64,000 bases of DNA, from NCBI GenBank assembly GCA_030374765.1, contig JARGXX010000093.1, forward strand, positions 62,001-126,000, in the 5' to 3' direction. The translations under genes were made by a program, and so were the position numbers. Under the pieces are notes generated by a model, which saw only the letters and a program-made list of their open reading frames with translations, had not been told where the DNA came from and did no database searches. Within the stretch, counting starts at the first letter, position 1; every line of letters begins with the position of its first letter. Shown piece after piece: positions 343 to 58,269 of the stretch. Origin of the DNA: Agarophyton chilense (lineage: Eukaryota > Rhodophyta > Florideophyceae > Gracilariales > Gracilariaceae).

Positions 343-813
343 AGTTTTTTTAGATTTCGTCGTACCTTCACGGTTCACACGAGATTCCGAGAAGAATTGG
401 ACGCTCGTACACCTAGTCGGTTTCAGGAAATCCCGCGAAGCAATACAGGATACCACTATTGGTCACAAGTAGAACGACCTACAAGGAATACGCGTGGTCT
501 GAGCGCCCCGCAAAGCCATAAAGGTCTTAAAGGAGTCTCATCGGCTCAACCGATTCTGTAAAACCCCGAGGAACTGCTCCGGCACCCTCAAGACAAAACC
601 GGAAAGGTACATGGTCCGCCGCCCATTGGCAATGGAACCTCAAAGGGAATTACCAATTGAGGTTGCAGCGCAGGAGCTATGGCCTCAGCTCGAAGAGCGA
701 GCGAAAGCGCTCGTCACCCTCGCGCTCGAGGAAGCATTAACCATAAAGGAGAAGTCGGGTACCCGGATGGTTCCGCCCTCAATGGCCCTAGAAGAAAGTA
801 GTGTGGCAGCCAC

Positions 814-820
814 GGGGTGG
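814..820. repeat. Left copy of a 7-bp target-site duplication
   Basis: GGGGTGG occurs here and again at 9551-9557, exactly where element A's gag sequence breaks off and resumes. It is the best candidate for the target-site duplication of the nested transposon. Seven bases is longer than the 3 bp usual for classical CACTA elements and nearer the 8 bp of KDZ-type relatives. The terminal inverted repeats are too weak to fix the boundary independently. Confidence 0.5.
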
Positions 821-835
821 GTACAGGACTGGACG

Positions 836-961
836 TGTACAGCAGTGCTTGCAGAGTGTCATTGGAGTACACCGAGTAGTGCTCAGCGAGTACTGTGCTC
901 CTCGCAGAGTGTACACGGAGTACGTGTCGCCACAATTGAATAATGGAGGGCGAACAGAGTG
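836..961 (+). repeat. Left subterminal repeat cluster of the CACTA-like element
   Basis: Within 130 bases there are three copies of CAGAGTG, several GAGTAC boxes and one CACGGAGTAC. Matching motifs recur at the other end of the element (9404-9520). I read this as a binding-site array for an element-encoded protein; that role is inferred from CACTA biology. Confidence 0.5.
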
Positions 962-1096
962 CACTTAGTCTGCCTCCACTTCCTGCAAGAGAACAACCTG
1001 AACTCATTTGACAAAGGAGAGTGATGTTTTAGTCATTGCGTGACAATGGTGTGCAAGCCCATGGAATCTGTGTAAATGGGAATCCTGTTTGAGACT

Positions 1097-1225
1097 AGTC
1101 TTTCTATAGGTGGAGAGCGGATCGGCCTAAACGAGCTGATTTGCAAGGTACGGAGATCTGAACCTAGCTTTCTGATTGGTCAGAAGTCCGACGTCAGCGA
1201 CGCCGTGTCGATTGGCCTCCTGCCC
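1097..1225 (+). repeat. 129-bp direct repeat, copy 1
   Basis: This segment is repeated at 3094-3222 with about six mismatches. Both copies start with a pyrimidine-rich run ending in AG (TTTCTATAG here, TTTCTGCAG there), like a splice acceptor. Both can encode the same peptide core (GERIGLNELICKVRRSEPSF, then an IGQKSDV box). Copy 1 lies upstream of the 685-codon frame and copy 2 inside it, 1997 bases apart. Confidence 0.85.
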
Positions 1226-1380
1226 CCAGCGCGTCGTTCTTTTCGGCGCGACATGCGAAGGGTACATCCGCCGCACATACTTCGTTCGGTCACTTCTCAT
1301 CGTCGTCGTCTGCTTCGTCGTTCGACGCGCTTCTTCGCCTTAAGTACGTTGTCTTCACACCGCATTTTCTTGTTCCAGTC

Positions 1381-3438
1381 ATGAATGTTGCTTCTGTTTC
1401 GCACGATGCCCGAACCCTTGCGCATGCGCGTGGACGCAAGCACGAGCGTGGCCGCGGCCGCGGCCGCGCCCGTGGTAGGGGACGTGCGCGTGGAAGGGGT
1501 TCGTCTGTTTCTGGTCGCGTCGCCGATTCTCATGCTGTGCCTTCGCCTTCAGCTGATGCTCACGTGCCCGGTACAGATCCGTTGAACGGTTCCAACCATG
1601 CATCGCCTCAGCTTCCCTTACATTTGATCACACTTGTTGATGCTACATCACCCCCATCTAAGGAGAACCCCACCGTGCAATCACAACCTGATTCCATCGC
1701 CCCTGCATCCTCGCCGCTGTCTCAAGTTCCTGTTGGCGATCAGGTATCGCCGATTGCTTCACCTGCTCGACAGCAGCGTCCTGTCAGCATTCGCTCTGGC
1801 ACCACTCCACGCAACATGACCGTTGTTCTCAACCAAACTAATCAGGTTTCGATCGATAGCGACCACGTCCCACCCGCCATGTCCATTCCTGGCAATATTG
1901 CTACGCTTGTTGACCCTATCAAACCGCTCGCATCACCAAGGCCAGTACAGCGCGATATGAACAATTCGGCTACCGATCCTGCTCACCCTTCTCACAAAGC
2001 ACCCCCGAGCCCTGCCGTTGGCGCAAAGCACGGGGTTACTATTATAGGCGAATCTGTTTCGATCAAGTCCGATCCAACTGGCCCACTTAGGATGTCAAAT
2101 AAGAACAAACCCGAGGAGAACCATAACGGCAACATGAACCTTAAAACAGCGAGGCCAGGCGATAAGAAGCCCAAGGACGGGACATCACTAGAAAACAAAT
2201 ACAATGGGAACAAGCTAGATGACAAGAATATCAGCTCCGGCAGCCCGGAAGAAGACAATTCCAAACACAAGACCCTACGTGCCACCGAGGCAGACGACGT
2301 GAAGTTCGGCGACGAGGCCGATGTCGATAATGGCATCGACACCAAGAAGAGCAGTACTATGAAGAAGCACCACAAAGGGAGTGATGAAAAGAAGCTTACT
2401 CATGAGAACACCAACACTTCCATTGTTGCAAATGATTCAACTGTCCTTGACGCGAGCACCTCCACCTCCGACACTTCTGCATCAAAACCAGACAAAGCGA
2501 ACAATGAAACCAATGATGCATCTGCTGGAAGCCACAGCTCTCATTTATTGGCTCATGCCAACAACAACGCAAAATCCTTGACACAACGAAAATTCCGCTC
2601 ATCTCGTCAAGGCATTGCCAATGCTACTGTGACAAATGCACCTTCTGAAAATTATCGATCCCCAGAGCTGCAAAACTCACCCTCAGTGCCAAATGCGTCT
2701 TTGACGCAACCGAAGCACGCAGAAGCTTCCACACTGGTGAGTCAAAAAACGCAGAAATCAGAGCCTGTCAGCTCAAGAGTCGCCCAATCCAACGGCGCAG
2801 TTCGATCCTCCCAAGGAAGCAAAATGCGTCCGGATTTGAAACGTCGCCACATCCGACAGACATCACAACCTCTTGAAGCCTCCCAGCCACGTCAAGGTGA
2901 TGGTTTCCCTGTTTGGCGTGTTATGGAGTCGTCATCAACAAGGGCAGGAACGGCTGCCGCTAGCTCTACTGCTCGCACTTCTGAAGTAGAGAACAACGAA
3001 ATACAGCGTCAGTCCGATAGAACTACTCCACATCAGAGAGTTCTCGCACCCACCACCCCTCCTGAAAAGGTCCCTGCTACTGTAGAGTCCAAGAGTCTTT
3101 CTGCAGGTGGAGAGCGGATCGGCCTAAACGAGCTGATTTGCAAGGTACGGAGATCTGAACCTAGCTTTTGGATTGGTCAGAAGTCTGACGTCGGCGACGC
3201 CGTGTCGATTGGCCTCCTGCCCGCTGGAATGAGACCTGATGGTGAGGCATGCCCGTTCACCCATTCCCACTTGCGAGACTTTGACCTTACCAATTCGCCG
3301 CTCACGAGAGAATGTGCTCTCCACCTCCCCAATCGCGAGATGCAATGCTCTCCCCACCGTGGCGCATCTGCAAGGATAAAGTATGCCCTTCTTGATGGAA
3401 GTATGCAGTATTTTCTGTTCTTGGTGTTCGCAAACTGA
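1381..3438 (+). CDS. Disordered RG-rich protein carried by the CACTA-like element
   Basis: This is a 685-codon open frame that I do not recognise. Residues about 17-45 are an Arg-Gly/Ala-Arg tract of the kind found in RNA-binding RGG boxes. Residues 50-560 are low-complexity, rich in Ser, Thr, Asn, Pro and Lys, with charged stretches and no membrane segment. Near residues 575-615 it contains the peptide encoded by the second copy of the 129-bp repeat. The C-terminus after that is rich in Cys and His but shows no regular zinc finger. In CACTA elements a second gene often encodes a DNA-binding TnpA-like factor. This position and basic composition would fit, but that is inference. The repeated, acceptor-like segment hints that the real transcript may be spliced. 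Confidence 0.55.
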   Translation: MNVASVSHDARTLAHARGRKHERGRGRGRARGRGRARGRGSSVSGRVADSHAVPSPSADAHVPGTDPLNGSNHASPQLPLHLITLVDATSPPSKENPTVQSQPDSIAPASSPLSQVPVGDQVSPIASPARQQRPVSIRSGTTPRNMTVVLNQTNQVSIDSDHVPPAMSIPGNIATLVDPIKPLASPRPVQRDMNNSATDPAHPSHKAPPSPAVGAKHGVTIIGESVSIKSDPTGPLRMSNKNKPEENHNGNMNLKTARPGDKKPKDGTSLENKYNGNKLDDKNISSGSPEEDNSKHKTLRATEADDVKFGDEADVDNGIDTKKSSTMKKHHKGSDEKKLTHENTNTSIVANDSTVLDASTSTSDTSASKPDKANNETNDASAGSHSSHLLAHANNNAKSLTQRKFRSSRQGIANATVTNAPSENYRSPELQNSPSVPNASLTQPKHAEASTLVSQKTQKSEPVSSRVAQSNGAVRSSQGSKMRPDLKRRHIRQTSQPLEASQPRQGDGFPVWRVMESSSTRAGTAAASSTARTSEVENNEIQRQSDRTTPHQRVLAPTTPPEKVPATVESKSLSAGGERIGLNELICKVRRSEPSFWIGQKSDVGDAVSIGLLPAGMRPDGEACPFTHSHLRDFDLTNSPLTRECALHLPNREMQCSPHRGASARIKYALLDGSMQYFLFLVFAN
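3094..3222 (+). repeat. 129-bp direct repeat, copy 2
   Basis: This is the mate of 1097-1225, about 95 percent identical. It is read in frame by the 685-codon protein. Only a handful of substitutions separate the copies, so the duplication is recent or kept similar by selection or conversion. Confidence 0.85.
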
Positions 3439-3895
3439 GGTTCGTTTTTCAGTAAGCATGTTCGTATTCGATTGTCCTCGGTTTTTGACTCTTCAAGCTG
3501 CTTTGAGGCTCAGGCTAGAACACTTAATTACTTTTCTCTTGCTCCCAGAATGGCTAGATTGGTAGTAGTTCCTTTTGTTCTTGTCATTTTGTTGCGCCCG
3601 CATGGTTTGTTCTCAAGATTCTACATACTCAGCGACACGCAGTTACTCTTTTCTACAGCTAATTCATTGGTTTATTGGTTTTTCTTTCTTTGTATTTACT
3701 ATCTTAATACATACGTTTGCATTCTTTTACGGGTTCGTTGTACTACAATTCATGTTCTTGCTAGGATAGATTTATTCATTGGATGAGTACATTATTCGAA
3801 AAAACTTTCAACTAACTCCTTTCTTTTGCTGAGCTTCAATATTGCGTTTCCGTCAAGTGTCATACCTTTTGCGGTGAAATGGTACACATACGAAA

Positions 3896-5296
3896 CTAAC
3901 GCCTGCTTTCGTGCCGGTGTTGGAAGCGTGTAACGGTTCGTCGGGCTCCTAGATTTCTAGAAACACGGGGCTGTCTGCTGCCAGTAGTATTCTCACAGTC
4001 ATGCGAGTTATTGGCTTGCGAAAATTGCACTGTAGCAGGACGTAATGCAGGAGTGCCGGATTGAGCTGTGGTTCGGGCTCTGGAAGCATAAAACGGGGTC
4101 GAGCCAGCGTGAGCAGCAATTACCCTTTCGAGAACAGCAGGACTTATAAGAGACGCTAACTGCGATGAACACAATCGATCAAAACCTGCAGCAACGGCAT
4201 CAACATCTGCTCCATCGTCGATGGTGTTAGCTGGTTCGGTACTTTCTCGATCTTCATTTTGGTTGGCAGTAGACTTCTCTAACTGAGATATGGGTACGTC
4301 TTCGTCGTTGGGACCAGGATCAGAATCCTGGTCTTCGTTGTCCAAGTTTCGTGCACCAGGTAGGTTTGTGGCCCTATTTTTTTGACTCGATAGGTTGTAA
4401 TCACTGTGAAGCGCATCGTTTTCTTCTGACGAATGGAGGTCTGAGAATGAATGCATGCCAATGACATGAGAAACCGGTATACCCAAAGGACTCGATATTT
4501 GGCGAGCATCATTTAGGCGTCTTTCTACTCGGCCAACAATTGATTGGTCACCAGAACCATCGCGCGAATGCTGCATATCCGGGGTAGGAGTTGTACGTTT
4601 CAACTGCGTGGAAGGTAAGATGTGCGCACCAAAGGCTCCTCGAGAGCTATTTGAAGATGTGCGAACTGTGTTCTGATGATTCTGAAGTGCTGGCAATGTC
4701 GAAGGACCAATGAGGTCTATTCGACGCCTTTGTGTTAATCCGTTGCCAGCAAGGGCGCCGTTCGGTTCTGGAACTCGCTTCGAAGACTTGCACTTCTGAA
4801 TGAAGAACTGTTCAACTCCCCAGTTTGATGCACCCTGCGCAAAAACCATCATGCTAGGCTTGGCACTGGCTGCATCTAACATTCTCTCCGCCAATGACTT
4901 GTTTTCCTTGTATATCGCTGACCAACTCTTTCCTTCCCAACCTCCAGGAAGCATCAAAGCCAATATGTTACCTACGCAATCCTTAGCATGCGCATTGATA
5001 ACCTCATCCGGAACGTCTTCAGGTACGTTAATGAGCCTTCGAGAGTCGGCGACTGGAAGTTTCGCATTTGTTTCCATTATTAACTCCCGAAAGGTTTTTG
5101 CAAGATTTGGGTCTCGACCAAATCTTGCTTGGAATCGTTTTGGTTTGTACAGAGGGTGTCGGAAGGGCTGGGGATGAATGGTATCAACCCTGCATTTGAT
5201 GTAATGCATTTCGTCTTCTATTTTTGACAGTTTGAGCATGGCTCGATCCAGTTTTGATTTCAGTGCATTAAGATCATCACGAAATGCCATCTCCAA
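3896..5296 (-). CDS. Coiled-coil protein of unknown function in the CACTA-like element
   Basis: This is a 466-codon open frame on the minus strand, transcribed away from the transposase. Residues 1-40 have the heptad-like pattern of a short coiled coil. Residues about 45-165 form an ordered-looking basic domain (from LYKPKRFQARFGRDPN to SNWGVEQFFIQKC) with conserved-looking Trp and Pro positions. The rest, about 170-466, is Ser/Asn/Glu-rich and probably disordered. I do not recognise the family. The ordered block could be the DNA-binding part that reads the subterminal repeats, with the coiled coil giving oligomers, but nothing in the sequence proves this. The start is the first ATG; a second in-frame ATG lies two codons later. 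Confidence 0.6.
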   Translation of the reverse strand: MEMAFRDDLNALKSKLDRAMLKLSKIEDEMHYIKCRVDTIHPQPFRHPLYKPKRFQARFGRDPNLAKTFRELIMETNAKLPVADSRRLINVPEDVPDEVINAHAKDCVGNILALMLPGGWEGKSWSAIYKENKSLAERMLDAASAKPSMMVFAQGASNWGVEQFFIQKCKSSKRVPEPNGALAGNGLTQRRRIDLIGPSTLPALQNHQNTVRTSSNSSRGAFGAHILPSTQLKRTTPTPDMQHSRDGSGDQSIVGRVERRLNDARQISSPLGIPVSHVIGMHSFSDLHSSEENDALHSDYNLSSQKNRATNLPGARNLDNEDQDSDPGPNDEDVPISQLEKSTANQNEDRESTEPANTIDDGADVDAVAAGFDRLCSSQLASLISPAVLERVIAAHAGSTPFYASRARTTAQSGTPALRPATVQFSQANNSHDCENTTGSRQPRVSRNLGARRTVTRFQHRHESRR

Positions 5297-5591
5297 ATGA
5301 GTTACGAATTTGGAGTTGTATGGAAGTATAGTACGAGCTCGGCGCTAAGCTTGGTCTGTGCGAGGAAGATGGAGATGCAGCTGCACTTATATCCTCCCAT
5401 ATTTTCGGTTCGTTTATAATATTTTCTGAACAGGCCTCGAATGGAAAGAAGATGCGATGCCACCTAACTGCCACGTTTCAGTTTATTCTATTCTATGTCT
5501 TCATCTTCACTTTTCAGGAATTGAATTCATTTTGCTCCTCGACATTGTGAGGCAAGTAAGACTGACTGCCGTGAATGAATGTTTTCAAACA
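5297..5591. promoter_or_regulatory. Shared divergent promoter region of the CACTA-like element
   Basis: The coiled-coil gene (minus) and the transposase gene (plus) start back to back here. The gap is 160 bp to the first transposase ATG and 295 bp to the more likely one at 5592. AT-rich TATA-like stretches (TTATAATATTTT near 5414, TTATAT near 5388) are present. A bidirectional promoter is the simplest reading of the layout. Confidence 0.4.
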
Positions 5592-8500
5592 ATGGAGCGG
5601 TATGCGTGTCCTCCGTGGTTTCAATGTCGATGTAGAATAGGAAAGCCAGTGAGCCTGTCGACGATGCGGAACCATCGTCGGGAGGCCAACAGGCGTCGGA
5701 AACGGGTTGGACGTGGACTGTTTACTTGGGGCCCAAAGCTGAAGGCGGGGCAAACGAAGTATCACCAATTCGAATGTTTTGATGACCTGAGTGAGCACCC
5801 GACTGACGAAGAGCCTGTGGCGGCCGACGAAGAAATCGGTATAGAAGATGCAGTGCGAAATATTCAGGATTCCATCCATTCCTCGCATGGTGAAGACTTG
5901 TCTCCGGGAAGCAAAAGCGGTTTGATTATGTCACAAGAGGAGTGTACTCTTGGGAGAGAAAATAGCCCTCCACCACCACCGATTCAATCCCTTGGACGTT
6001 CGTCCGCCAATCAAGATAGATCAGAAGACAATCTAGAAGGAAATGGAGGGGATACATCCTCTAAAAATGATGAGGTACAAGAAACCCAATGCACCACCGG
6101 AAGAAACGTTCAGTCAACATACTGTGAAAATGAAGGAAGTAATGTCAGAGATGAATCTGAACAGGAAATTGGGATCTCTCGCGCGAATTGTAACACCAAT
6201 GATTCCTATGGTGAAGCATTTCAACCCGGTCTACACTCCATTCCAGGCATGGAAGAAAGTGGTTCCTCGAAGGAGACGACTTCCGCCGTAGGTGATACAG
6301 GAATGGTGGAACCAGTTGTAGTACCTCAAAGCTCAAGTGGTGACGGACTAGCACATGATGAAGGTTTGCACTCTTCTCAACATTCTGAAATTGTTGCAGG
6401 AGAGGGTAGCTCATACGAAAATGACGACATCGGCGGAACCCAACATGCATCATCATCAATCAGAGGTCTCGGTGCCTGGGTCACAGCACAAATAAGAGTC
6501 GTTGACATCTATCACAAGAATAATTTAGAGTTTACAGTTATGGACGATATCTTGAATATCGTGGATGCCCCTTGCAAAAGCTGGAAGACAGTTACCAGCT
6601 ACATCTGCAGAAGCACTGGGCTGTCCGGTAATCTCGAGAAGTACGCTATATGCCCAGGACACAGGGCATTCGTTGAAATCGATGTTGGGGGGAACTCGGC
6701 AAGAAATGAATTAAGTTCAGCTGTACCGCAAGCAAGCGACTGTGATGTATGTGGAAAATCAACCCCGCCAGAGCTTGATGATGCTGAAGAGGTGTACAAA
6801 TATCTACCAATCTTGCCAAGAATTGAAAAAATGGTGCTTGACCCAGAAATGTGTGAGCAGCTATATCAATATCGTTGGGAATCTGCGCGTGATTCTTGTG
6901 AGGGAATCCTCAGTGACTACATGCACGGGAGTCAGTACGCTCTCCTTCAGCAGAAATACGGCGGTGAGGAGGGAATGAAGTACGATTTCTTCATCGGAGC
7001 GTCCACAGACGGGTTTCAAATCTTTAAAAACAAACTCTACGATGTTTGGATACTCTCAGCCTTAAACCTAAACCTCCCTCCCAACCGTCGTTATCGAATG
7101 CACAATGTGCTGCCACTGGCTTTCATTCCGGGACCTAAGCAGCCCAAGAACCTGCAGTCGTTTCTTATCCCGCTTTTGAATGAAATTCATCGCTCTCTAG
7201 CAGCTGAGGGTGGCATTCTACTTTTTCATGACGGCGTACAACGCAAAGTACGCATTCATCTTCTTTTCTTTTCAGGTGATCAACCAGCCATTTCAAAGGT
7301 CGCATGCCTTGCCGGACCAAACGGTAAAATGCCGTGTCGTGAGTGTGAGATACATGGGCATCATCAAGTACACACGTACTTTCCTTCGAAACTGAGAATT
7401 GCAGAGAGCAGTTCGCGATTCAAGATTTTTTTCAACCCAAGAAGGTTAAATCTTCGAACTCCCACTTCTATAAGCGAAAGCATTGAAAGAGTTGAAGATT
7501 GTTCGACCGAGGCGGCACGGGATCGTGTTCGTTTGGCATCAGGGATATCTGGGAGGACTCTGTTGTTCTCGTTACCATACGTGAATAACTATACTTGGTT
7601 CCCCCAGGACGTGATGCATACCTTTATGAACATTCAACGCGATCTCTTTCAAATCATGTTTGAGACAAAGGATGATGAGTTTACTCTCTACCCTCACGAC
7701 ATTGCCGTGCTGGATAAAGATTTGGTAGGATGGGGGGCAACAATATCCGGTCAAATTGCAGCAAAACCGAGAGCACTCAGCAGGTACAGGAACTGGAAGG
7801 CATCTGAACTGAAGCGTTTCACATCTATGTACTCCACTGTGCTCTTCGATGGTGTAATTCCGCGAAAGTACTTGGATGGTCTATCTAGTTTCGCTGAAAT
7901 TGTGGATATTTGTTTTAGGACAAAGCTCACAAACTTCGATATAGATCGAACAGGACAACTTTGCATCAGTTTCTTTGAACATTTCGAGGAATGTTACTTT
8001 CGGTACAGTCCTTCTCGCGTTTGCTTCTGCAAATCTACGTTTCATGCGCTTTTGCATCTTGCCGAGGGAATGACACGATACGGCCCTCTGGGTGCCGTAT
8101 CGCAGTACTGGCTGGAACGAAGTATCGGATGGGTTCAGGACCGCAACAATTCCCGATACCGAGCAACGGAGTCACTGATGAAAAGCGCTTGCTTTGGGGA
8201 AGCATACAAGCTATTTTATAGGACACCCTTTGTCACTGAAGATGATTCGAAGAAACCAATCATCGAAGCTGGAGGCTTCCAGCGCTTGGGACCAAGCGCA
8301 CAAGTGAGTCTGGCACAATTTACCGACGGACTCCGCCTACGTCAGCTGATTCAGAAGTATTTGGTGAGAAAATACGTAGGAATGTCAGATGCAGACTCGA
8401 GAACACTTGCATCCAGATTACAGAAGTGCCATCTCTGGTCACGCGTAAAGTTCGTCAGCGGAGATACTGTACAAGCATCAAGTGTGTATTGGGATATACG

Positions 8501-9002
8501 GAGCAGGGAAAAGCGTCAACCAAACATGAGGGAGAATTGCTTCGTGGCGGTTGAAATGGACAAGACAGCCAACTCTGCTGATGTGTACTACGGGAGGTTA
8601 ATGCGTTTGATTGAATTTGACCTCTCCGCGATACTTAGTACTGGGGTGTCTGCACCACCAGATTGGCAATGTTCACATTTCGTTGGGTGGTTTGATTGGG
8701 GTGAAAACATGAAGCAAGGACGACAAGGACAGGTATACAAGGAATGTGCCTCCACTCTGGCTTTCAAAAGAGCATCTTTAGAAGATGTTTCAATTATAAA
8801 TCGTCTCATTGGTCTGGCAGAGCATCGATTGTGGAACCAGGAGAGAAATGAAGGAACCGAGAGGAGGGCTCTCGGTCGACGACGGACATACTTTTTAGAC
8901 GACCTCTGCCGCACGCACAGTCTTTTGAATCCCAGAGCGCCTTCCTGGGATGGTATCAACAGAGTACTTTGTGGAGTAGCTGGGAGGGAGACGGAACGTT
9001 AA
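5457..9002 (+). CDS. CACTA-like DDE transposase (Transposase_21/tnp2 type)
   Basis: This is an uninterrupted 1181-codon frame. If translation starts at 5592, the product is 1136 residues and begins near a Cys-rich segment (CPPWFQCRC) followed by a basic stretch, like the N-terminal zinc module of such transposases. After a 350-residue acidic disordered region the catalytic core follows: TDGFQIFKNKLYDVW (first Asp about 516), then IPGPKQPKNLQSFLIPLL, which is the family hallmark. Next come GDQPAISK with a CREC pair (second Asp about 607), FPQDVMHTFMN, and finally WLERSIGWVQD (Glu about 887). This enzyme would cut and paste its own element. Length and motif order match full-size tnp2-like enzymes, and no lesion is visible. 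Assignment to CACTA rather than to the related Plavaka or KDZ groups is less certain. Confidence 0.85.
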   Translation: MPPNCHVSVYSILCLHLHFSGIEFILLLDIVRQVRLTAVNECFQTMERYACPPWFQCRCRIGKPVSLSTMRNHRREANRRRKRVGRGLFTWGPKLKAGQTKYHQFECFDDLSEHPTDEEPVAADEEIGIEDAVRNIQDSIHSSHGEDLSPGSKSGLIMSQEECTLGRENSPPPPPIQSLGRSSANQDRSEDNLEGNGGDTSSKNDEVQETQCTTGRNVQSTYCENEGSNVRDESEQEIGISRANCNTNDSYGEAFQPGLHSIPGMEESGSSKETTSAVGDTGMVEPVVVPQSSSGDGLAHDEGLHSSQHSEIVAGEGSSYENDDIGGTQHASSSIRGLGAWVTAQIRVVDIYHKNNLEFTVMDDILNIVDAPCKSWKTVTSYICRSTGLSGNLEKYAICPGHRAFVEIDVGGNSARNELSSAVPQASDCDVCGKSTPPELDDAEEVYKYLPILPRIEKMVLDPEMCEQLYQYRWESARDSCEGILSDYMHGSQYALLQQKYGGEEGMKYDFFIGASTDGFQIFKNKLYDVWILSALNLNLPPNRRYRMHNVLPLAFIPGPKQPKNLQSFLIPLLNEIHRSLAAEGGILLFHDGVQRKVRIHLLFFSGDQPAISKVACLAGPNGKMPCRECEIHGHHQVHTYFPSKLRIAESSSRFKIFFNPRRLNLRTPTSISESIERVEDCSTEAARDRVRLASGISGRTLLFSLPYVNNYTWFPQDVMHTFMNIQRDLFQIMFETKDDEFTLYPHDIAVLDKDLVGWGATISGQIAAKPRALSRYRNWKASELKRFTSMYSTVLFDGVIPRKYLDGLSSFAEIVDICFRTKLTNFDIDRTGQLCISFFEHFEECYFRYSPSRVCFCKSTFHALLHLAEGMTRYGPLGAVSQYWLERSIGWVQDRNNSRYRATESLMKSACFGEAYKLFYRTPFVTEDDSKKPIIEAGGFQRLGPSAQVSLAQFTDGLRLRQLIQKYLVRKYVGMSDADSRTLASRLQKCHLWSRVKFVSGDTVQASSVYWDIRSREKRQPNMRENCFVAVEMDKTANSADVYYGRLMRLIEFDLSAILSTGVSAPPDWQCSHFVGWFDWGENMKQGRQGQVYKECASTLAFKRASLEDVSIINRLIGLAEHRLWNQERNEGTERRALGRRRTYFLDDLCRTHSLLNPRAPSWDGINRVLCGVAGRETER

Positions 9003-9550
9003 TGACACCGGTTCTTACCAGGACGGAGTTTTTTTGCAAGCGAGAAGCATGGGAAAATCCGAGTCGAAAACGTTCAAGCTCTGTCATCGACGAATATGCA
9101 ACCCCGCAACGTCGAGAAGCTGACAAGGAGGAATGGCAAATGTGAATCCAGGGAAAATGAAGGCAATAGATCTCACGGTACCATATTTCGTACCCAATGT
9201 TTAAGTAAAGCACCTGTTTCAATATTGGCCGTGACGTGACCAATATTGCTGCCACCGTACAATGTTGGCCTACGCTGTTGCCACATGGGCCAATGAATCT
9301 CGCATCATGAGATTCTTTGTTCTTAGCATGCCCCATTTCTTCCAATGGGGACCGCTCATACGGCCTGTTAAAGAGTGTTTCATTTGAGTGTGAACACAGT
9401 TCACACGGAGTACACATAGGTGAAATGTACACACTCGCTCTGCACTGCGTGCACCATACCATGAGGAGTTTACAGAGTGCCCGTACGGGATGCATACAAC
9501 ACGTTGTATACACTCTGTACATCCCGTGTGGACCTACCCAATATTCTACA
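9003..9550 (+). other. 3' non-coding end of the CACTA-like element
   Basis: There is no gene here. There is a 9-bp inverted pair CAATATTGG/CCAATATTG at 9220-9228 and 9240-9248. A CACGGAGTAC subterminal box lies at 9404-9413. A nested inverted repeat spans 9473-9526: CAGAGTG/CACTCTG, CGGGATG/CATCCCG and a central ATACAAC/GTTGTAT. These arms could fold into a long cruciform just inside the right terminus. Confidence 0.6.
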
Positions 9551-9557
9551 GGGGTGG
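9551..9557. repeat. Right copy of the 7-bp target-site duplication
   Basis: GGGGTGG matches 814-820. Element A's gag sequence resumes directly after it. Confidence 0.5.
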
Positions 9558-15437: not shown

Positions 15438-16807
15438 ACGGTAACAGCGGGAGCTCTCGACCCGGCTCCCACACACGAAGCTCCAAACTCGAAACATATG
15501 AACCCTCGAGGTAGCACCCCCCCCCCCGATAGATCAGGACCAAACCTCAGGGAAATTTCCCTTTGACCGTCTGGTGGGCCACACGCGAACCTACAATGGT
15601 CTGAAGTACACCGTATGGTGGTACGGCTGGGGCCCAGAAGGGGACACCCTCGAACCCCCAGCCGCAATACCCCCACACTTCCGTATCAGGTGTTGGCGCC
15701 GTCGCAAAGAGCAGATGCCTGCAGACGGCTAACCTTAGACCTTCGTAATGCTCAGGCCTAAGGAGGGGGGATAAAAGACGTCGTTTTCGGCAGAAGGTGG
15801 ACGCATGTGCTTGTCAGATTACTTACAAGGGAGGACACGAAAGAACAACCGAGTGTAACAGTAGAAGATACAAGAAGTGACAACAATTGAATTGAAGAAG
15901 GAGACACTACGGAAGTCAAGTGGCAGGCGGCCGCCACAAGAACCTCAATGGTTGTATCGACGCAGGCTCAGGCCCAGCAGGCTCCACGAATCAATCCCTA
16001 AAAGGTAGACGAAACCTGAAAGGTCGAGAAGCCAGAAAACCTTGAGGGAAAAGCCGGACAGTACAGTTAAGGTCGCGACGCCGCCAATTAAGGGCAGTAC
16101 TACCTGAAGGGTTGTCGAGCCGTGGGAACGACCAGGCGAGACGGCGCTGCGTATGGACCTAGGAGGAGAATGAAGTTGAAGTAACCGGGAAGGATGCGAT
16201 ACCCACTCGGTTAGACAGTGGGCGATGCGGAAGCAGAATCGCTGGCAAGCAGGGCCACTACCGAAAAGGTGTCCAAGAGCGTGCTAGGTACACTGCATCG
16301 CCCTCATGACAGTCCCTATCTGAGTGGTTGTCGCTCAATTCGTGCGCCGACGTCGACGCGCGCCCTCCCCCAACCGATACTGGCGCCGAGTTCTGAACCT
16401 CAAGGGATCCAGCGCCGCGCCCAGACACTACTCCGATGCCCGCGCCGCTGTCGCTCGCTACAACTCCATGGGGTGATGAAGGGAGACACGGGGCGTGCCT
16501 CGTGGGTAGGAAGGGGGTCTGTCGTGTAGTGGCGGAAGGGCTGACCTTTGAGGTTTCCGATACACTACGCTGACCTTCTATGTGATGGGTGCGAGGAATC
16601 ATCGGCCACCTGGCTCCGAGCGAGCTACCATCTAGGTGTTTTCAGCCACGTGTAGCGTTGACATGTACCTCCCGGTTGAGTAATTGTTATTAATTGTACT
16701 TGTAATTATATTTATTTTAGCACAGAAGTGGAGTGGACACCTGGCACTGTAGCCAGTGCTGGACGGGTCTCTGACACTAGGTCAGAGACCGTGCCTTGCT
16801 GGCACCT
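15438..16807 (+). mobile_element. 3' tail and LTR upstream part of element A, with chromodomain-like stretch and purine tract
   Basis: Around 15.55-15.71 kb one frame reads like a chromodomain (YTVWWYGWGPEGDTLEP). The polypurine tract is AAGGAGGGGGGA at about 15760-15771, so the 3' LTR should begin within about 10 bases of it, near 15.78 kb. Its length would then be about 1.35 kb. This start cannot be confirmed because the corresponding part of the 5' LTR is outside the window. The rest holds no gene. Confidence 0.55.
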
Positions 16808-17128
16808 CCCGGGTGATCTGGAGAGTGCATTCCACTGCATATAGGGAACTGCACCTCCCCCATCCTTATCTGATAAAGGCAGGCATCACTTGGGTCACGG
16901 CAACACCTTTTGGTTTATTGTTTCTCACCTACCACACAGGCTTTCCCGCGCGTCGACGCCTACCATCATTCACCTACACGGTATAGGCTAGTCGCCCCGC
17001 CGTTTGCCCCTGCGGGTTTTCACGGTTCCCTGTTACCATCGAGGTTTATCACGTCTACCTTCTAAGGTTGAGCGTCACCACGCTCCCGAGACAAGACAGT
17101 AGCAGACCCCAGAGGTGATTGTACGACA
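16808..17128 (+). repeat. 3' LTR of element A (part verified against the 5' LTR)
   Basis: This stretch is identical to 1-321. It ends in ACA at 17128 and is followed at once by piggyBac coding sequence on the other strand. The five bases after it are CTATC, the predicted target duplication; its partner lies left of the window. Confidence 0.9.
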
Positions 17129-32975: not shown

Positions 32976-34241
32976 ATGATTGAGCGGAAACGTCGCCGCT
33001 TTCAATATTTGGTGCTGGTGTTCACAATATTTTTGTGGGTGCACAACAAAAGGAAGAGAAATACTCGAAGAAAGAAAAAAGCACCTAATCGTCGTTCTTT
33101 CATTTCTGTCACCCAACGCCTCACCAACTCCGATTTCGCCAAATCTTTTCGGATGTCTTGTACCGCGTTTTATACTCTTGTTGAACTTCTTAAGCCGTTT
33201 ATTTGTCGCTTTTACGACGGTGAAGAACACCACGAAGCGGAAGCCCATTTCAAAGGGCATGACGTCGAGACGGCGACGAAGGTGGCAATCTTTTTCCGCA
33301 CTATGGCCGGAGCCAGCTACTGGGATATGTTCTTTACGTTTGGCCTAGGAAGATCAACTGTGTATACCATTCTTTATAGCGTTTTAATTGCATGTGATTC
33401 AGTACTACATTTTGAGCAGTTTCCGCAAAAAGAAGACCACACTGCTTTTTTCGACCGAGCGATAGATTTCTCGTTGTCAAGAAGGCATTTTAATTCTCTA
33501 CCGGGGTGCATTGGTGCTGTGGATGGAACTATCATATATTTGGAGAAACCTTCGAAAGAACTAAATAATCAACAGTTCTACACTCGAAAAGAAGGGTTTG
33601 GTGTCCCTGTGCAGGCGGTCGTAGACTCCAGATATCGTTTTGTTGCTAGTTCTGCAATCTGCGTTGGGTCTACCGTGGACTCAGTTGCGTTCGCCCATTC
33701 CAATATCTCAAAGTTCTTAGACGAGATCGGACTACCGCCGGGTTTTTGGATTCCTGGAGATGAGGCCTATATCTGAAACGATATGCTAATTAGAGCGGTG
33801 CCTAGCTCTGAAGCTGATGAATTTGATCAGGGGTTCAACATGCTGTTGTCGTCGCACAGGGTGCACGTCGAGCAGGCATTTGGACGATTAAAGAGTCGAT
33901 GGGGAATTCTATGGCGACCGTTGAAGTTTGATTTACAGCAGTCATTAGTAATAATAAATAACGCTATGAAGCTGGAGAACTATTGCATCAACGAAGAATC
34001 ACGCGACGAACACGAATATCATGGTATGAGAAACCTGGTGGTGGCTAAAGACAGTTTAGTTAGGTGGTTAGAGTATAATAGGTCTGGCTTCGATTCTTTC
34101 TTTGCTCTTGATCCTGAGGAAGACGTGGAGAAGGAAGGAAATATGTTAGACGTGATCTTTGATAAGTACTCAAAAACGCGGCAACGACTACGAACTATTG
34201 CATTAAGGCTGCGCATAATAACGATGACATGCTCATTATAG
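32976..34241 (+). pseudogene. PIF/Harbinger transposase (DDE_Tnp_4), nearly whole
   Basis: One collinear frame of about 421 codons is split by a single TGA at 33774-33776. Before it lie a basic N-terminus, a helical region, CIGAVDGTIIYLEKPSKE (first Asp), the GVPVQAVVDSRYRF block, GSTVDS and GDEAY (second Asp, about residue 261). After the stop come FNMLLSSHRVHVEQAFGRL (catalytic Glu), KSRWGILWRPL and NNAMKLENYCINE. This is the full motif order of Harbinger transposases. The TGA stands where the second copy (49.2 kb) has a Cys codon. The partner Myb-like gene and the terminal repeats were not found. Confidence 0.85.
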
Positions 34242-39523: not shown

Positions 39524-42500
39524 TTACATAACGGAGAGCCAAATTTGGTCAACCTCGTCGTCGAGATCTTCCCCGTGCGGGTCCGCTGACACAGCTCGTT
39601 CCCGAGAAAGCGGGGTTTGAGTGTGCGACACCTCAGTGTCTCGTCCGCGGCGGCGGGTGATCGTAGGCTCTGTAGGCGTTCCGGGTGCGGAGTTCTCCAC
39701 ACAACTCTCCCTAGGCGGGTTTTCGTCATCTTTTCTGACGTCGTGCTCGGCTGGGTTGGCGGTGATGTCGCTACCCATATGATGGGGTTGGGACTTCTCT
39801 GTCGCCGGCTCGGTCGGGCTCGCCGTCTCACTGTGAGAACTAGATTCCCTGTTAGGGCGACTGGCTGACGCCGAAACATCGTCCTGCGAAGGAACTAAGT
39901 CCTCCTCCCCCTCCTTAGGCGGAGAGCCAGGAGGCTTGATTACCTCCGGTGGGGGAGTAACTCTGTAAGTGTTTGTTGACTGGGCCCTTGAGGGAGCGGG
40001 CCCAGGTTCGGGAGTATCCGAAGTTTTCGGTAGGTCAGGTAAACCACGTTCCGGGTGCGGAAGTATAACGGGGCGGGTGTTCGAATCTCCGCCTGACGGG
40101 TTAACTTCCGTTGAATCATCCCCTGTGGAGGGCGTTGTTGCCGACACCACTTCCACATTTGGGTTGGGCGCTCGTGTGATGCGGTCCCTGGAGATCCGTT
40201 CGTGGCGGTTAGCGATATCCAATACCACCGTGTCCGGGTCTACAGAAACCACACGATAGGGTCCGTCCACAATTGGCGAAAACTTGTGCCTACGTTCCTT
40301 TTCAGGATTGTAGTATTTCTTTCGAAGGAAGACGAAGTCGTCGGGCTCCACCTGATGTAGAGGTTTGCGAACCCGATTGTCAAAGTCCTTCTTGTAGGCG
40401 CGTTGAGCTTTGTCCATTGCTTTCCGGGCTATCGGCACCATCTTCGTGAGCCACTCCTTCCAGGCTTCTCGGTACAATCCCGGTGACGGGTACTTCGACA
40501 GCGTCGGTTGAGCCTCGATGGCGACCGGCGGCGGTGTCCTCGACAGTACCAGTTCGAATGGGGATAACGATGTAACCCGATGTACTGGGTGTTGTATGCA
40601 TACGTGATAGCGTCTGTGTACAAGTCCCAATTTTTGGGGTGATCCGCAACATCCGATCTCATAGCGTTGAGTATCGTGCGGTTAAACCTCTCCACCTGGC
40701 CATTCCCCTGAGGGTGATACGTAGTAACAAATAAATTCCTTACATCAAGGATTCGACATACATCCTGAAAGAACTTTGATGCGAATTGCCCTCCGTTGTC
40801 GGATAACAACTGCACCGGCGGTCCATATACGAACACTCAATGGGTCACAAACGCTTGCGCGACGGTAGCGGCGGTGATTTGCTTCAGCGGCACAGTTCTC
40901 GTTAGCTTAGAGAATCTGTCAGAAATGACAAGCAGATACAGATGACCTCGGGGCGTCCTGATAAAATCCCCTAGGATGTCTATGGCCACTAATTCGAGTG
41001 GAGCCCGTGCCGGGAACAGCGTCAACTTCTTAGAGTGCTTCCGAAGTTTGACGTCATTCTTGGCGCAATTGGTGCAGGTCCGTCTGACGGCGTAACAATC
41101 GAATGCCATTGCCGGCCAGTAAAAGTCCCTTCTCAACGTGAGGTACAGTTTTCTTCCCCCGGGGTGGGCGCCAACCTTCACATAGTGAGTGAGGTGTAAT
41201 ACCTTCTGTTGTAGGGTGTGCGGCACCACTATCTTCGGGCGAGGTCCAACGGTCCTGATTGGGTAACCCTGATCGTCGTCCTCGAAAGGTAACTGAAATC
41301 CTCCGTTGAGGCGAGCCCGAATCCGTGTACAGAATGGGTCGATCTGTTGCTCGCGTATCATCTCCTCTGGAGAGATAGGTATAAAAGAGCCGGTCGGCGA
41401 ATCCAGACTCTCGTTGACGAGTATATCGTCACAAACATCATCCGTCAGCGGTTGAGCTCCTCCCTCGAGGTCCGATTCCATAAAGCATGGGATGTCATCG
41501 TCCTCGTAGGGTTCCGTTTCCGCTGTGGTTCCCAAGCGGGATAGTGCATCAGCCTGAGTGTTCAGCTTCCCTTTCTTGTACAGGATCTCAAAGTCGAATT
41601 CCGACAGTCGGAGACGCCAGCGCATAAAGCGGCCCGAGGGTTCGGAGATCTCCAGGAGCCAACGCAAGCATGCGTGGTCCGTATGGACTTTGAAACGAGT
41701 ACCCATCAGATAGGGGCGAAGTGTATCTAAGGCCCACACAACGGCTAAACATTCTTTCTCGGAGACCGAGTAGTTCCTTTCATGGACATTCAGGGAGCGT
41801 GACCAGTACCCAATAGGGTGACGTTCACCATCCTCAGAGGATTGGAACAGTGCACACCCTACTTGGTTTGCACTAGCATCGGTGTCCACTTCGTAAGGGA
41901 GCCCAGGATTGGGTAGAGCCAAGATTGGCGGTGATGTTACGGCATTCACCAGTGCCGTGAAGGCAGACGCTTCCGCGTCGCCAAAAGGTTCCAGTTCAAC
42001 TGGTTGTCCCTTCGTCAAAAGCCTGTTGAGGGGGGTGGCAATGTCCGCAAAGTTCGGGACGAATCGGCGATACACGTTACACAGACCTAAGAAGGATCGC
42101 AACTCCGTTTGAGTTTTCGGGTGTTTTGCTTCCTTCAAGGATTTCACTCGTACTTCATCGATTGAAAGCTGTCCGGGACGGATGATATGACCCAGATACT
42201 TAACCGAATCGGTGAAAAACTCGCACTTCTTGAGTTTCAAGGTGATTCCCGCGTCGCGGAGTATCTTCATTACGTCCCTGACGTGTTCGAGGTGGTCATC
42301 CAGGTTGTTGGAGAAGACAATAATGTCGTCTAAATACACTAGACACGTCCTCCACTTGAAGGGAGCCAACAGAATGTCTATCGCCCGTTGAAACGTTGCG
42401 GGGGCATTTGTCAACCCAAAAGGCATCCTCCGGAAGCGGAAAAGTCCTTGACGACACACGAAAGCCGTTTTGTCTCGATCTTCCTCCCTAATAGGGACTT

Positions 42501-44045
42501 GCCAGTAGCCCGAATTGGCGTCGAGGGTAGAGAAAACAGTAGCGCTCCCAAGGGAGTCGATGTATTCGTCCATCCGAGGGATCGGGTACACATCCTTAAT
42601 GGTTACCTCGTTCAGGCGTCTGTAATCGATGCAGAAACGCCACGATCCATCCGGTTTCGGAACTAACACCACTGGTGAGGCCCAAGCGGACTGGGCAGGT
42701 TCAATTACGCCCGCTTTAAGCATCTTCTCCACCTGAGATTCTCCTCTTCCCGAGCTTTCGGTCCAGCCCTGTAAGGGTGTTGGGCAATAGGCCGAGTGTT
42801 CGGTAACAAGTCGATGCGGTGTTCTGTAATCCCAATAGTTCCAAGGGAACCATCGCACATGGGGGTAAATTCACGAAGCATGTGCCTCAGCTTCTCCCGA
42901 TGAGATGCGGGTACATGGTTGAGATCCCATTTCTCCAATTCCTGAACAGGATCCGTCTGGTCTGCTCTTGTGGTAGGGGCCGTAACCTCCTGAGGTTTAA
43001 AGTGTTCAGCGTGTGGAGCTGCAGTCGTATGCTCACCGTCTTCCGCGATTTCGGCATTGTCCTCCCCCTCCTTAGGGTCCGCCACACCAAGGACTTCTGC
43101 GATAGAGATCTTTGTAGGTACGACCGCATGCGGGTGTGGAAGAACAGAACCCAGGATCTGGTGTTTGACCAAATGCTGCGTTGTCTTTCCAAAGTTGGCT
43201 ACCAAAACCTTGAAAGGTTTATCCGGTTCCACGGAGACAACCCCATTTGCAAGGGCGAGTTGACGCCGCGTATACAGAGACGGGTTCGGTTGTACCATAT
43301 GCACACCAATTTGCTTGGTAACAACTGTGACCCAAACCTGGGTTTCTGGCGGGATAGCCACTGACTTCGCAACCTTTACCCGTGTAGACACCGGGTCCTT
43401 CTTCACAGATTTCTGCGCGACGGGGAGAGGGACGCGTGTTCCCGCTGCTCCCTGTAAGGGTTTACGAACGATTGGGATCGTAGAACCGTCTTCGAGTTCC
43501 ACAGTTCTATTCCGAGGACGGATGGCTTCCACGAAGCGGTCGCAAAAGTCACAACCCAGTATGACTGGTGCTGCAAGTGACTTGCATACAATAAAATCCA
43601 GTTGAACGAGATAGAAGCCTAACCTCACCATGAGGGAAATTGTACCCAGTGTCCGTAGCGGGTTGTTGTTCGCATCGGCGATATCCAAACGTGGACCGGT
43701 ACGAACTTGAACCCGGAGCAGCGGGGGTAACAATTCAACATGAATTAAGTTAGGAGCGGCTCCTGTATCCAGGACAGATATTTGACGAACCATAAACTGG
43801 TTGGACAGGCCGAAGTCGGCGAATACCTTATAATTCCGCTTGGCCATTACCATAACTCGATCCGGAATACGGAGATTACGGGACCGTATCCACGGGCGAC
43901 GGAGGACACTAAAGTATCCCGAGTTAACGTCGGTGTCAACCGTTTTCCTTGAAAGGATTGTCACAGCTGGGGAGCGAAGCTGGAGCGCCTCGGGCGTCTT
44001 CAACTCCGGCTTAGAAGACGCCCCTCCCGCAGGGGAGACTCCCAA
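39524..44045 (-). mobile_element. pol region of element B (protease, RT, RNase H, integrase)
   Basis: On the minus strand the order is: an aspartic protease (SVLDTGAAPNLIHVE near 43.75 kb), RT (YLDDIIVFS near 42.33 kb), RNase H (VDTDASANQVGCALF; TDHACLRWLLE), integrase zinc segment (HPGGRKLYLTLRRDF...CTNCAKN near 41.0-41.2 kb), integrase core and the GPY/F region (FSPIVDGPYRVVSVD near 40.27 kb). A long disordered tail follows. It is close in order to element A's pol but clearly a different lineage. Confidence 0.9.
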
Positions 44046-44047
44046 GT

Positions 44048-46078
44048 TTAGTTTTTCGAAGCGGACCCCACCGAATTCGGTGCAGCTGCCTCGAAGGGGA
44101 CCGGTTTTTCCCCGTTCGCGGGTACAAGTTCTGTATCCCTGTCAGCAAGGTGAGCTCGGAGTATCCTTTGTTCCTCATAGGACCTACTCGGGACTCGAGC
44201 TTTCTCCTCAGGGGTCAGAGCCTCGTACTGAGCGATAATTCGTGAACCCTCCCGCAGGGGAAATGTGCAGTCTGGTGCTTTGTGACCACGGAGGTAACAA
44301 AAATAGCAAATCAGCTCTGCCGGGTTCGGTTGTGGACGTGAATCCACGCGACGTGGTGCTGTATTCCTCCATCCGGGGCGAGAGAACCGAGCAGCGGTAT
44401 TCGCAAAAGGTAGCGATGCGGCTGGCACCCTCCGTCCGTGGGTATAGAGCGCTGGGTCTTCATCCGTAGTCGGAGCGGATGTCGACGGCAACTCAGACGT
44501 ACCCATAGATTCGGGGTTACTTCGCATGAATTGAATGTTATCATTGACCCCCACAGGGGCAGGGCCTCCTGCGAGTGACAAAGACGAGTTACCTCCATCG
44601 GCGAGGAGTGCACGTGTCGGCCGACTCTTTCGGTTCTGCCGGGCACGGAGAGTATTCCCCTCAGCCTGGGCGTACTGAACCAGTTCCAAGTAGGTCAGCT
44701 TGCGCTTCTCTTCCCGATGTCGGGCAACCAATGCCCTTATCGAGGGGTCCAAATCGTCCACAAACATGGAGCATCTTTCGTAGGCGGGGAATACATTCCC
44801 GCATCGGTGAAACGCTTTATTCAAGCGAGTTGAATACAACATTTCGGTTTCCATCGGCTTCTGCCGCGTATCCCTTAATGCAAGGATTGCTTCCTGAATC
44901 GCATTTCCAGTAGCGTATGACCTCAAGAGGTACTGAACCGCTTCGGGCCAGCACGCGACTGCCCCTTCCGAGGCTCGGGATGATCCACGGACGGAGTTGA
45001 ACTGGTCTTCAGCCATCCCCTTTAAGAAATAGGGTAATGCAAGATACGCTTGCGCTTCACTCATACCGAGGATGTCAGCCTCCTGGACGAACCTCGCAAG
45101 GAAATCGAGCACCAGAATTGGGTCTGTTCCTGTGAACTCCCTCTTCTGTAGGGTGATGCTCAGCCTTTTGATGTAGTCCTTGACCTTACCCGTTCCGCGG
45201 GATGTTCGATCTCCCGAAGGGTTATCCAACCGGTAATAGCGGTACGATAGCAGCTTCCGATAGAGAGGATTCGTCAGCTTCAGCTCCCTTAATCCAAGGT
45301 GTTTCCTACCCTTCTTCCCGGTACGGATTGCCCCTTGAGAGGTGTAAGTAGCCTTCGACCGAGTCGCCCGGGATGACCGGCGTCCATCTTCACTATCCGA
45401 AGATTCGGAGGACGAACTCGATGACGAGCGATTGGGATCGGAATCCAATAAATCCTCTTGGAGGTGAACCCTCTTCTTGGACTTGCGGCGGTCCCGTTTC
45501 GCGGAGCGGTGTTCTTCGTCTTCCAAAACGTCGGGTTTATCCTTCGAGGCTTCTGTGTCTCCGTCCATACGGATAATGGCCTCGAGGGTGTCCAGCCGAG
45601 CTCGGAAGCGTTCCGCTTGCACGCGGTGTTCCTCCACGAGGCTCCGGTACTCCTGGATAAAGACCCCAGGGGTACCAAAGCTTTCCAAAAGGGAGTTCAC
45701 ATCCCTCCTCAGGGTACGAAGATCATCGGCGACTCCCCGCACCTGGGCGTCCTCCACCTTGTAGCGGAGGGTAGTAACCTCCTGAAGGAGCTCGACGTGA
45801 GCCGCGTTGGCGATATCGATTCGAGTCTCCAGGCGCTGTAATTCAGGGTCGGCCCGACTTCGGGGTGCTGCTGAGAGGGTCTCCACCACTGGAGCTGCGC
45901 CCACAGCCACGACCTCTCGAGGACTTGAAACCACTGAGGGTGCTCTCCGAGTGTCCGGATCGATACCGGAATCGTTCCGGACTTCGGGAATTGAGCTCCT
46001 CGACCTAGGCGGGGCCGGGGGCACTGAATTCGCTTGACGGTTGGATCCAGTCCTGGAACCACGGGTAGTCGGCGACAT
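44048..46078 (-). mobile_element. gag region of element B
   Basis: This is a 676-codon stretch. It has a disordered Ser/Pro/Arg-rich start, a coiled-coil-like segment (about residues 85-180), a Ser/Asp/Glu tract, and a capsid-like domain (FTGTDPILVLDFLARFVQEA; FHRCGNVFPAYERCSMFVDDL). A single CCHC knuckle (CYFCYLRGHKAPDC) lies near the end. This is the standard gag plan of the family. Confidence 0.88.
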
Positions 46079-58185: not shown

Positions 58186-58269
58186 GTGGTGCCATCTAAA
58201 TTAACTTCCGGACGCAACGGCAAGAGTCTCTGGCAACTCATCTACCCATCGACTTTTCTGCCGCCAAGT

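Follow-up and report, generated by a model that had tools for sequence, protein, structure and literature searches.

Structure and Limits of the Transposon

The DNA analyzed here (the window) is a stretch of 64,000 nucleotides from the red alga Agarophyton chilense (= Gracilaria chilensis), in which a CACTA-like (CMC, tnp2-type) transposon stands within the coding sequence of a long terminal repeat (LTR) retrotransposon, element A. The transposon probably represents a cut-and-paste family with a fixed core and an exchangeable middle, whose short form, present in the window, arose through repair that captured host DNA at the edge of a Mutator-like element and was then spread by transposition. 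For this family, 3-bp target site duplications (TSDs), different insertion sites, empty sites, short and long forms, and host-gene segments inside the element were directly shown. The parts of the window copy, including terminal inverted repeat (TIR) pieces and open reading frames (ORFs), are listed in Table 1. An HSP90 search agreed with this host, giving 100% identity across the full query to a protein labelled Agarophyton chilense, against 92% for Gracilaria domingensis, Gracilariopsis chorda and G. vermiculophylla. The genome searched comprised 79.8 Mb in 135 contigs, and the copy counts obtained from it are lower bounds; the G. chilensis assembly was published as 76.07 Mb in 138 contigs, with 66.2% repeats (PMC10388701; this and the other cited papers are drawn on for the parts of their text available here).

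Table 1. Positions in the window of the transposon and its component features
Feature	Position	Strand	Description
Left TSD, TGG	783-785	no strand	one TGG at the empty site in 6/6 sampled copies of element A
Whole transposon	786-9554	+	8769 bp; CCCTAG...CAGGGG; ends fixed by seven full-length copies with different flanks
5' end common to short and long forms	786-1085	+	element positions 1-300; 97-98% identity to four long-form copies
Mutator-like TIR piece 1	1086-1225	+	outer terminus adjoins the captured gene; no difference among the four short copies
Captured host segment	1225-3105	+	1881 bp of a DEAD-box-like gene on C16; 155 bp upstream of the ATG plus 575 codons; 98.46% identity, ungapped
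Chimeric ORF	1381-3438	+	685 codons; captured N-terminus continued in frame by TIR piece 2 and element DNA
Mutator-like TIR piece 2	3094-3222	+	outer terminus adjoins the 3' core; 95.3% identity to piece 1 over 129 bp
3' core common to all copies unless truncated	3223-9554	+	about element positions 2437-8769, ~6.3 kb; 97.7-99.6% identity
ORF2	3896-5296	-	466 codons from a TTG start (the tool's call); divergent from the transposase
Transposase	5592-9002	+	1136 aa; D473 (7008-7010), D563 (7278-7280), E842 (8115-8117)
Right TSD, TGG	9555-9557	no strand	one TGG at the empty site in 6/6 sampled copies of element A

The limits of the element had been set in the first-pass annotation at 821 and 9550, with the GGGGTGG repeats at 814-820 and 9551-9557 regarded as bracketing it; comparison of copies with different flanks replaced these limits by those in Table 1. 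The left GGGGTGG corresponds to element positions 29-35 and is present in all eight copies having a 5' end, and the right one consists of the terminal GGGG of the element plus TGG; thus, GGGGTGG is not the TSD, which is TGG. The 5' end of the transposon reads CCCTAGAAG and the 3' end CTACAGGGG. All seven full-length copies begin with CCCT(A/G), end with CAGGGG and are bordered by perfect 3-bp TSDs (TGG, TGA, TTA, GAA, GAT, AAA and TGA). The insertion site was empty, with a single TGG, in six of six other copies of element A, fetched from 39 other scored places of this element, and in five of them the retrotransposon frame was open across the site. The nesting of a large DNA transposon in retrotransposon coding sequence, as proposed earlier, was thereby confirmed.

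Transposase and Classification

The uninterrupted transposase frame of 1181 codons reported in the first-pass annotation was recovered at 5457-9002; the ATG at 5592, which defines the protein listed in Table 1, aligns with the starts of two of its four relatives. The protein matched Transposase_21 (E = 2.8e-8; score 33.6 bits, cut-off 28.6 bits). A homolog search, with scoring confined to the 7986 candidates that had most words in common with the query, yielded four unnamed proteins with 39-47% identity and one weak match from Lolium. Residues D473, D563, C582/C585, H818/H822 and E842 were invariant across the five aligned transposases, namely, that of the window and the four homologs. A profile search of solved structures and an NCBIfam search with three proteins gave no matches, and none was found for ORF2 in Pfam.

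According to the motif rule for CACTA/EnSpm elements, C(2)C and H(3-4)H lie between the second D and the E of the D, D, E series (PMC12730594), and the window transposase carries C(2)C and H(3)H in this interval. The family resembles CACTA/EnSpm (CMC; designated CMCT in PMC12730594) in Transposase_21, the DDE residues with these motifs, the 3-bp TSD, the two main ORFs and the large size, whereas it differs in the CCC..GGG termini, the divergent arrangement of the two core ORFs and the red algal host. Since its termini are not CACTA despite a CACTA transposase, motifs and TSD, the family is classed by these sequence features as CACTA-like (CMC) and not as canonical CACTA; the CACTA-like designation of the first-pass annotation is retained. 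Membership in Plavaka was rejected because the termini described for that group are TGT..ACA or CATCA..TGATG (TSD of 2-3 bp; PMC12730594), which CCC..GGG does not fit. As for subterminal repeats, a few 9-mers were common to both ends and neither end exceeded the interior, the joint-end count being inflated by an N spacer. No title or abstract opening in the open-licence literature was found to report CACTA/EnSpm-type elements in Gracilaria or red algae. The present results add to red algae a large family of CMC type that was recently mobile and has termini other than CACTA.

Copies of the Family and Their Age

A DNA search of the genome with 2 kb of the transposase revealed nine copies and nothing else. 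Seven are full-length and stand at different sites, and two are truncated (C111 without the 3' part and C95 without the 5' part). Four copies, including that of the window, are of the short form, and the other three align with the window copy from end to end at 98.0-99.6% identity; in the long-form copies C10, C3, C97 and C111, 6-16 kb stand in place of the short-form middle. The first-pass annotation had suggested a search for further copies and for empty sites in element A, and both searches were positive; common flanks of all copies, which it regarded as speaking against activity, were not observed, the flanks being different. A diverged single copy without defined ends is ruled out by the nine copies and the sharp ends, and the flanks speak against origin of the nine sites by segmental duplication.

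In the tree constructed from the 3' core, the window copy and the two C13 copies formed one group (support 100), and the C1, C10, C3, C97, C111 and C95 copies diverged almost from a single point, on branches of 0.9-1.4%. The terminal branch of the window copy was the shortest of the nine (0.11%), and this copy differed from its closest relative by 0.49%. Private changes within the captured segment (1881 bp) numbered one in the window copy and 6, 5 and 19 in the other three short copies. The sequence comparisons thus support recent mobility of the family, and the recent activity suggested in the first-pass annotation agrees with the seven full copies at different sites with perfect TSDs, the six empty sites and the short branch of the window copy. 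The element may also still be mobile, as was suggested there.

It should be noted that the same copies could be the remains of a past burst and now be only decaying, an explanation with a considerable chance of being correct, if somewhat short of even. Seven of the nine transposase frames are interrupted or truncated, only those of the window and C3 being open, and most terminal branches are in the range given above. ORF2 is present in eight copies and open in two of them. Changes between copies are near the neutral ratio, with nonsynonymous to synonymous rate ratios (dN/dS) of 0.67-1.04 in six pairs for the transposase and a spread from 0.2 to 3.7, on few changes, for ORF2; however, once inserted, sister copies are in any case expected to change neutrally. 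Two open transposase frames, together with the position of the window copy in the tree, also argue against a family that is already dead.

Captured Gene and Mutator-like Pieces in the Short Form

The middle of all four short-form copies consists, in order, of a Mutator-like TIR piece, 1881 bp from locus C16 and a second TIR piece, with both pieces in the same orientation. Apart from the four short copies and C16, the captured segment was found nowhere in the genome. The gene at C16 is a single open frame of at least 1070 codons, reaching the end of the stretch examined, with DEAD and Helicase_C domains; the relatives of its protein were MSS116-like among the best 120 of the 2149 listed. The frame is intact with a long RG-rich N-terminus, and compared with five relatives it deviates in motif I and in the SAT and HRIGR regions, so that the donor looks like a pseudo-helicase with eroded catalytic motifs.

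Mutator-like elements have long TIRs, a TSD of about 9 bp and a MULE transposase domain. TIR piece 1 occurs with at least 115 bp at 20 further places in the genome outside the family, among 43 matches. The source elements of the TIR pieces, which are probably Mutator-like, have termini starting with GGCAGGAGGCC and TSDs of 8-9 bp; the TSD GAAATCACA was perfect in one of the three pairs examined, with eight matching bases in the other two (by eye). In one such element (C113:672081-677909), a single ORF combined a SWIM match (E = 1e-4, above its cut-off) with a weak MULE match (E = 0.0015, below its cut-off). A 1207-codon ORF of the same element showed a weak match to an Ulp1-type peptidase (E = 0.0018, below the cut-off), and the element recalls gene-bearing MULEs of the Kaonashi type.

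Proposed Origin of the Short Form

The Mutator terminus forms the end of each TIR piece, adjoining the helicase segment in one case and the 3' core in the other, as would be expected had a Mutator-like element once occupied the core edge. At the switch from the helicase segment to the TIR, an identity of 9 bp and a match of 10/12 bp were found, values reached by 1e-5 and 5e-5, respectively, of 200,000 random junctions. The preferred sequence of events would be as follows. The transposase would cut at the CCC..GGG ends and insert the element with a 3-bp stagger. Initially, a Mutator-like element would have lain at the border of the 3' core, and the stretch from approximately element position 300 to the Mutator TIR would then have been lost. 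During double-strand-break repair, a segment of 1881 bp would have been copied from the helicase-like gene; one of its sides would have been joined to the Mutator terminus, and at the other the repair would have returned through the AGTCTTTCT microhomology, thereby doubling the TIR piece. By transposition, the resulting short form would have reached four or more sites, with the window copy as one of the most recent. Since the structure is common to the four short copies from end to end, a single capture followed by transposition is favored.

A segment lying between two Mutator-like TIR pieces, with the right junction on the inner side of the TIR, would also be expected if a Pack-MULE, that is, a Mutator-like element already carrying the helicase segment, had inserted into the transposon. 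Such an element requires inverted TIRs, whereas both pieces here have the same orientation, and the left piece adjoins the helicase DNA by its outer terminus and not by its inner side; this origin is accordingly considered unlikely. For Arabidopsis Pack-CACTA, a tandem double insertion has been published, in which two related elements on either side of a host gene move off as one (PMC13317346). Its application here seems highly improbable, because what lies on either side of the captured DNA is a Mutator-like TIR piece and not an end of this family, and no copy of the family was present at the donor locus C16 within the stretch examined. Repair with template switching, in contrast to either of these routes, accounts for the doubling of the TIR piece in a single orientation.

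Several observations weigh against the repair-capture origin or the cut-and-paste family in which it is placed. Little microhomology is seen, by eye, at the junction between TIR piece 1 and the helicase segment and at the junction near element position 300. The 3'-core tree leaves the C1 short copy ungrouped with the other three, although the relevant nodes have support of only 54-66, and the order of events is itself inferred. The broken or truncated state of seven of the nine transposase frames, for which assembly errors are a possible cause, must be added, as well as termini of CCC..GGG rather than CA..TG and a predicted transposase structure (mean pLDDT, predicted local distance difference test score, of 42.8) too poor for a check of the catalytic fold.

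Capture of host fragments by CACTA elements has been published (PMC8978399, PMC8903248, PMC13317346), and for animals, gap filling that involves microhomology has been described as one way in which fragments are captured (PMC8277862). The present family is like Pack-CACTA, Pack-TYPE and other gene-bearing CACTA elements in that captured host-gene fragments were moved by transposition (PMC8903248, PMC8978399). Pack-TYPE elements are non-autonomous by definition, whereas transposase sequence is present in all nine copies here, and Mutator-like pieces flank the captured segment, unlike in Pack-CACTA and Pack-TYPE elements. With the animal gap-filling Pack-TIRs it shares copied filler DNA, breakpoint microhomology and later multicopy spread by transposition, but two transposon superfamilies are involved here (PMC8277862). 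Plants offer known cases of such gene capture, and the present combination can be regarded as a variant of an established type. According to a 2026 review, the mechanism by which DNA transposons capture unlinked host DNA is still partly undiscovered (PMC13317346); the donor, near-identical captured copies, pieces of a second transposon and the microhomology occur here in one genome, which makes the capture route readable base by base.

Chimeric Open Reading Frame

The chimeric ORF was open in all four short copies, in only one of which the transposase was open, although few stops are expected in it anyway. Between the C93 and C1 copies, 17 synonymous and 18 nonsynonymous changes were counted (P = 0.008 against the neutral spectrum of the rest of the element). 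P was 0.02 in each of two further comparisons involving C1, and the other 15 of the 18 comparisons gave values above 0.05; the three low values all involve the C1 copy and are uncorrected for multiple tests. These counts are a hint of selection on the chimeric ORF rather than a demonstration. That it is a selected protein, a new gene built by the transposon from the promoter side and N-terminus of a degenerate helicase, a Mutator TIR and its own DNA and then spread, appears doubtful.

Surrounding Retrotransposon

The LTRs of element A extend over positions -287 to 321 and 16520 to 17128 of the window and differ at 24 of 609 positions. All 24 mismatches lie at LTR positions 8-272, beyond the window edge, and none at 273-609. 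The identity of the LTR ends reported in the first-pass annotation therefore holds for the 321 positions inside the window (0/321 mismatches) but not for the full LTR, and the age argument built on it, from identical LTRs through a young element A to a still younger insertion, fails. The bases flanking the LTRs (CCATA and CTATC) are unmatched, leaving no TSD, and element A looks recombinant or gene-converted; because of the patchy mismatches and the absence of a matching TSD, its LTR identity was rejected as a clock. Thus, of the initial description of the locus, the nested transposon and its open transposase frame stood, whereas the limits, the TSD and the LTR identity were not upheld, and the captured middle (1086-3222) had gone unnoticed.

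The C10 and C3 copies likewise stand inside members of the element A family (87-91% identity), which gives three of the seven full copies in total. The flanks of the C1 copy and one C13 copy have distant similarity to element A (67-70%), and those of the remaining two have none. Given at least 40 element A places in the genome, three of seven copies are no proof of an insertion preference.

Cargo of the Long Form

Three of six scanned stretches of the C3 long-form cargo matched WD40, NOP14 and HflX-type GTPase domains. Matches to the long-form cargo elsewhere in the genome, including collinear series on C79 and C2, are 70-87% identical; therefore, this cargo would have been acquired much earlier than the spread of the present copies or would have come from elsewhere. 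Most of the extra length of the C10 copy is due to 7.7 kb, in which one ORF, without a match in Pfam, resembles by eye the window ORF at 42705-44045. Three pieces of long-form cargo each occur at C8 and C86 (75-85% identity, nearly equal spacing), with related pieces at C121, and these loci are perhaps another repeat family sharing the cargo.

Other Features of the Window

An ORF of 266 aa (32976-33776, + strand) matched DDE_Tnp_4 (E = 2.9e-12) over half of the domain and represents a partial Harbinger-type transposase. ORFs at 39524-46078 (- strand) resemble, by eye only, gag and pol of a second Ty3-type retrotransposon. Two large ORFs at 55289-56956 (- strand) and 58186-60123 (+ strand), with no Pfam match, resemble each other in places (by eye) and possibly belong to a lineage-specific gene family.

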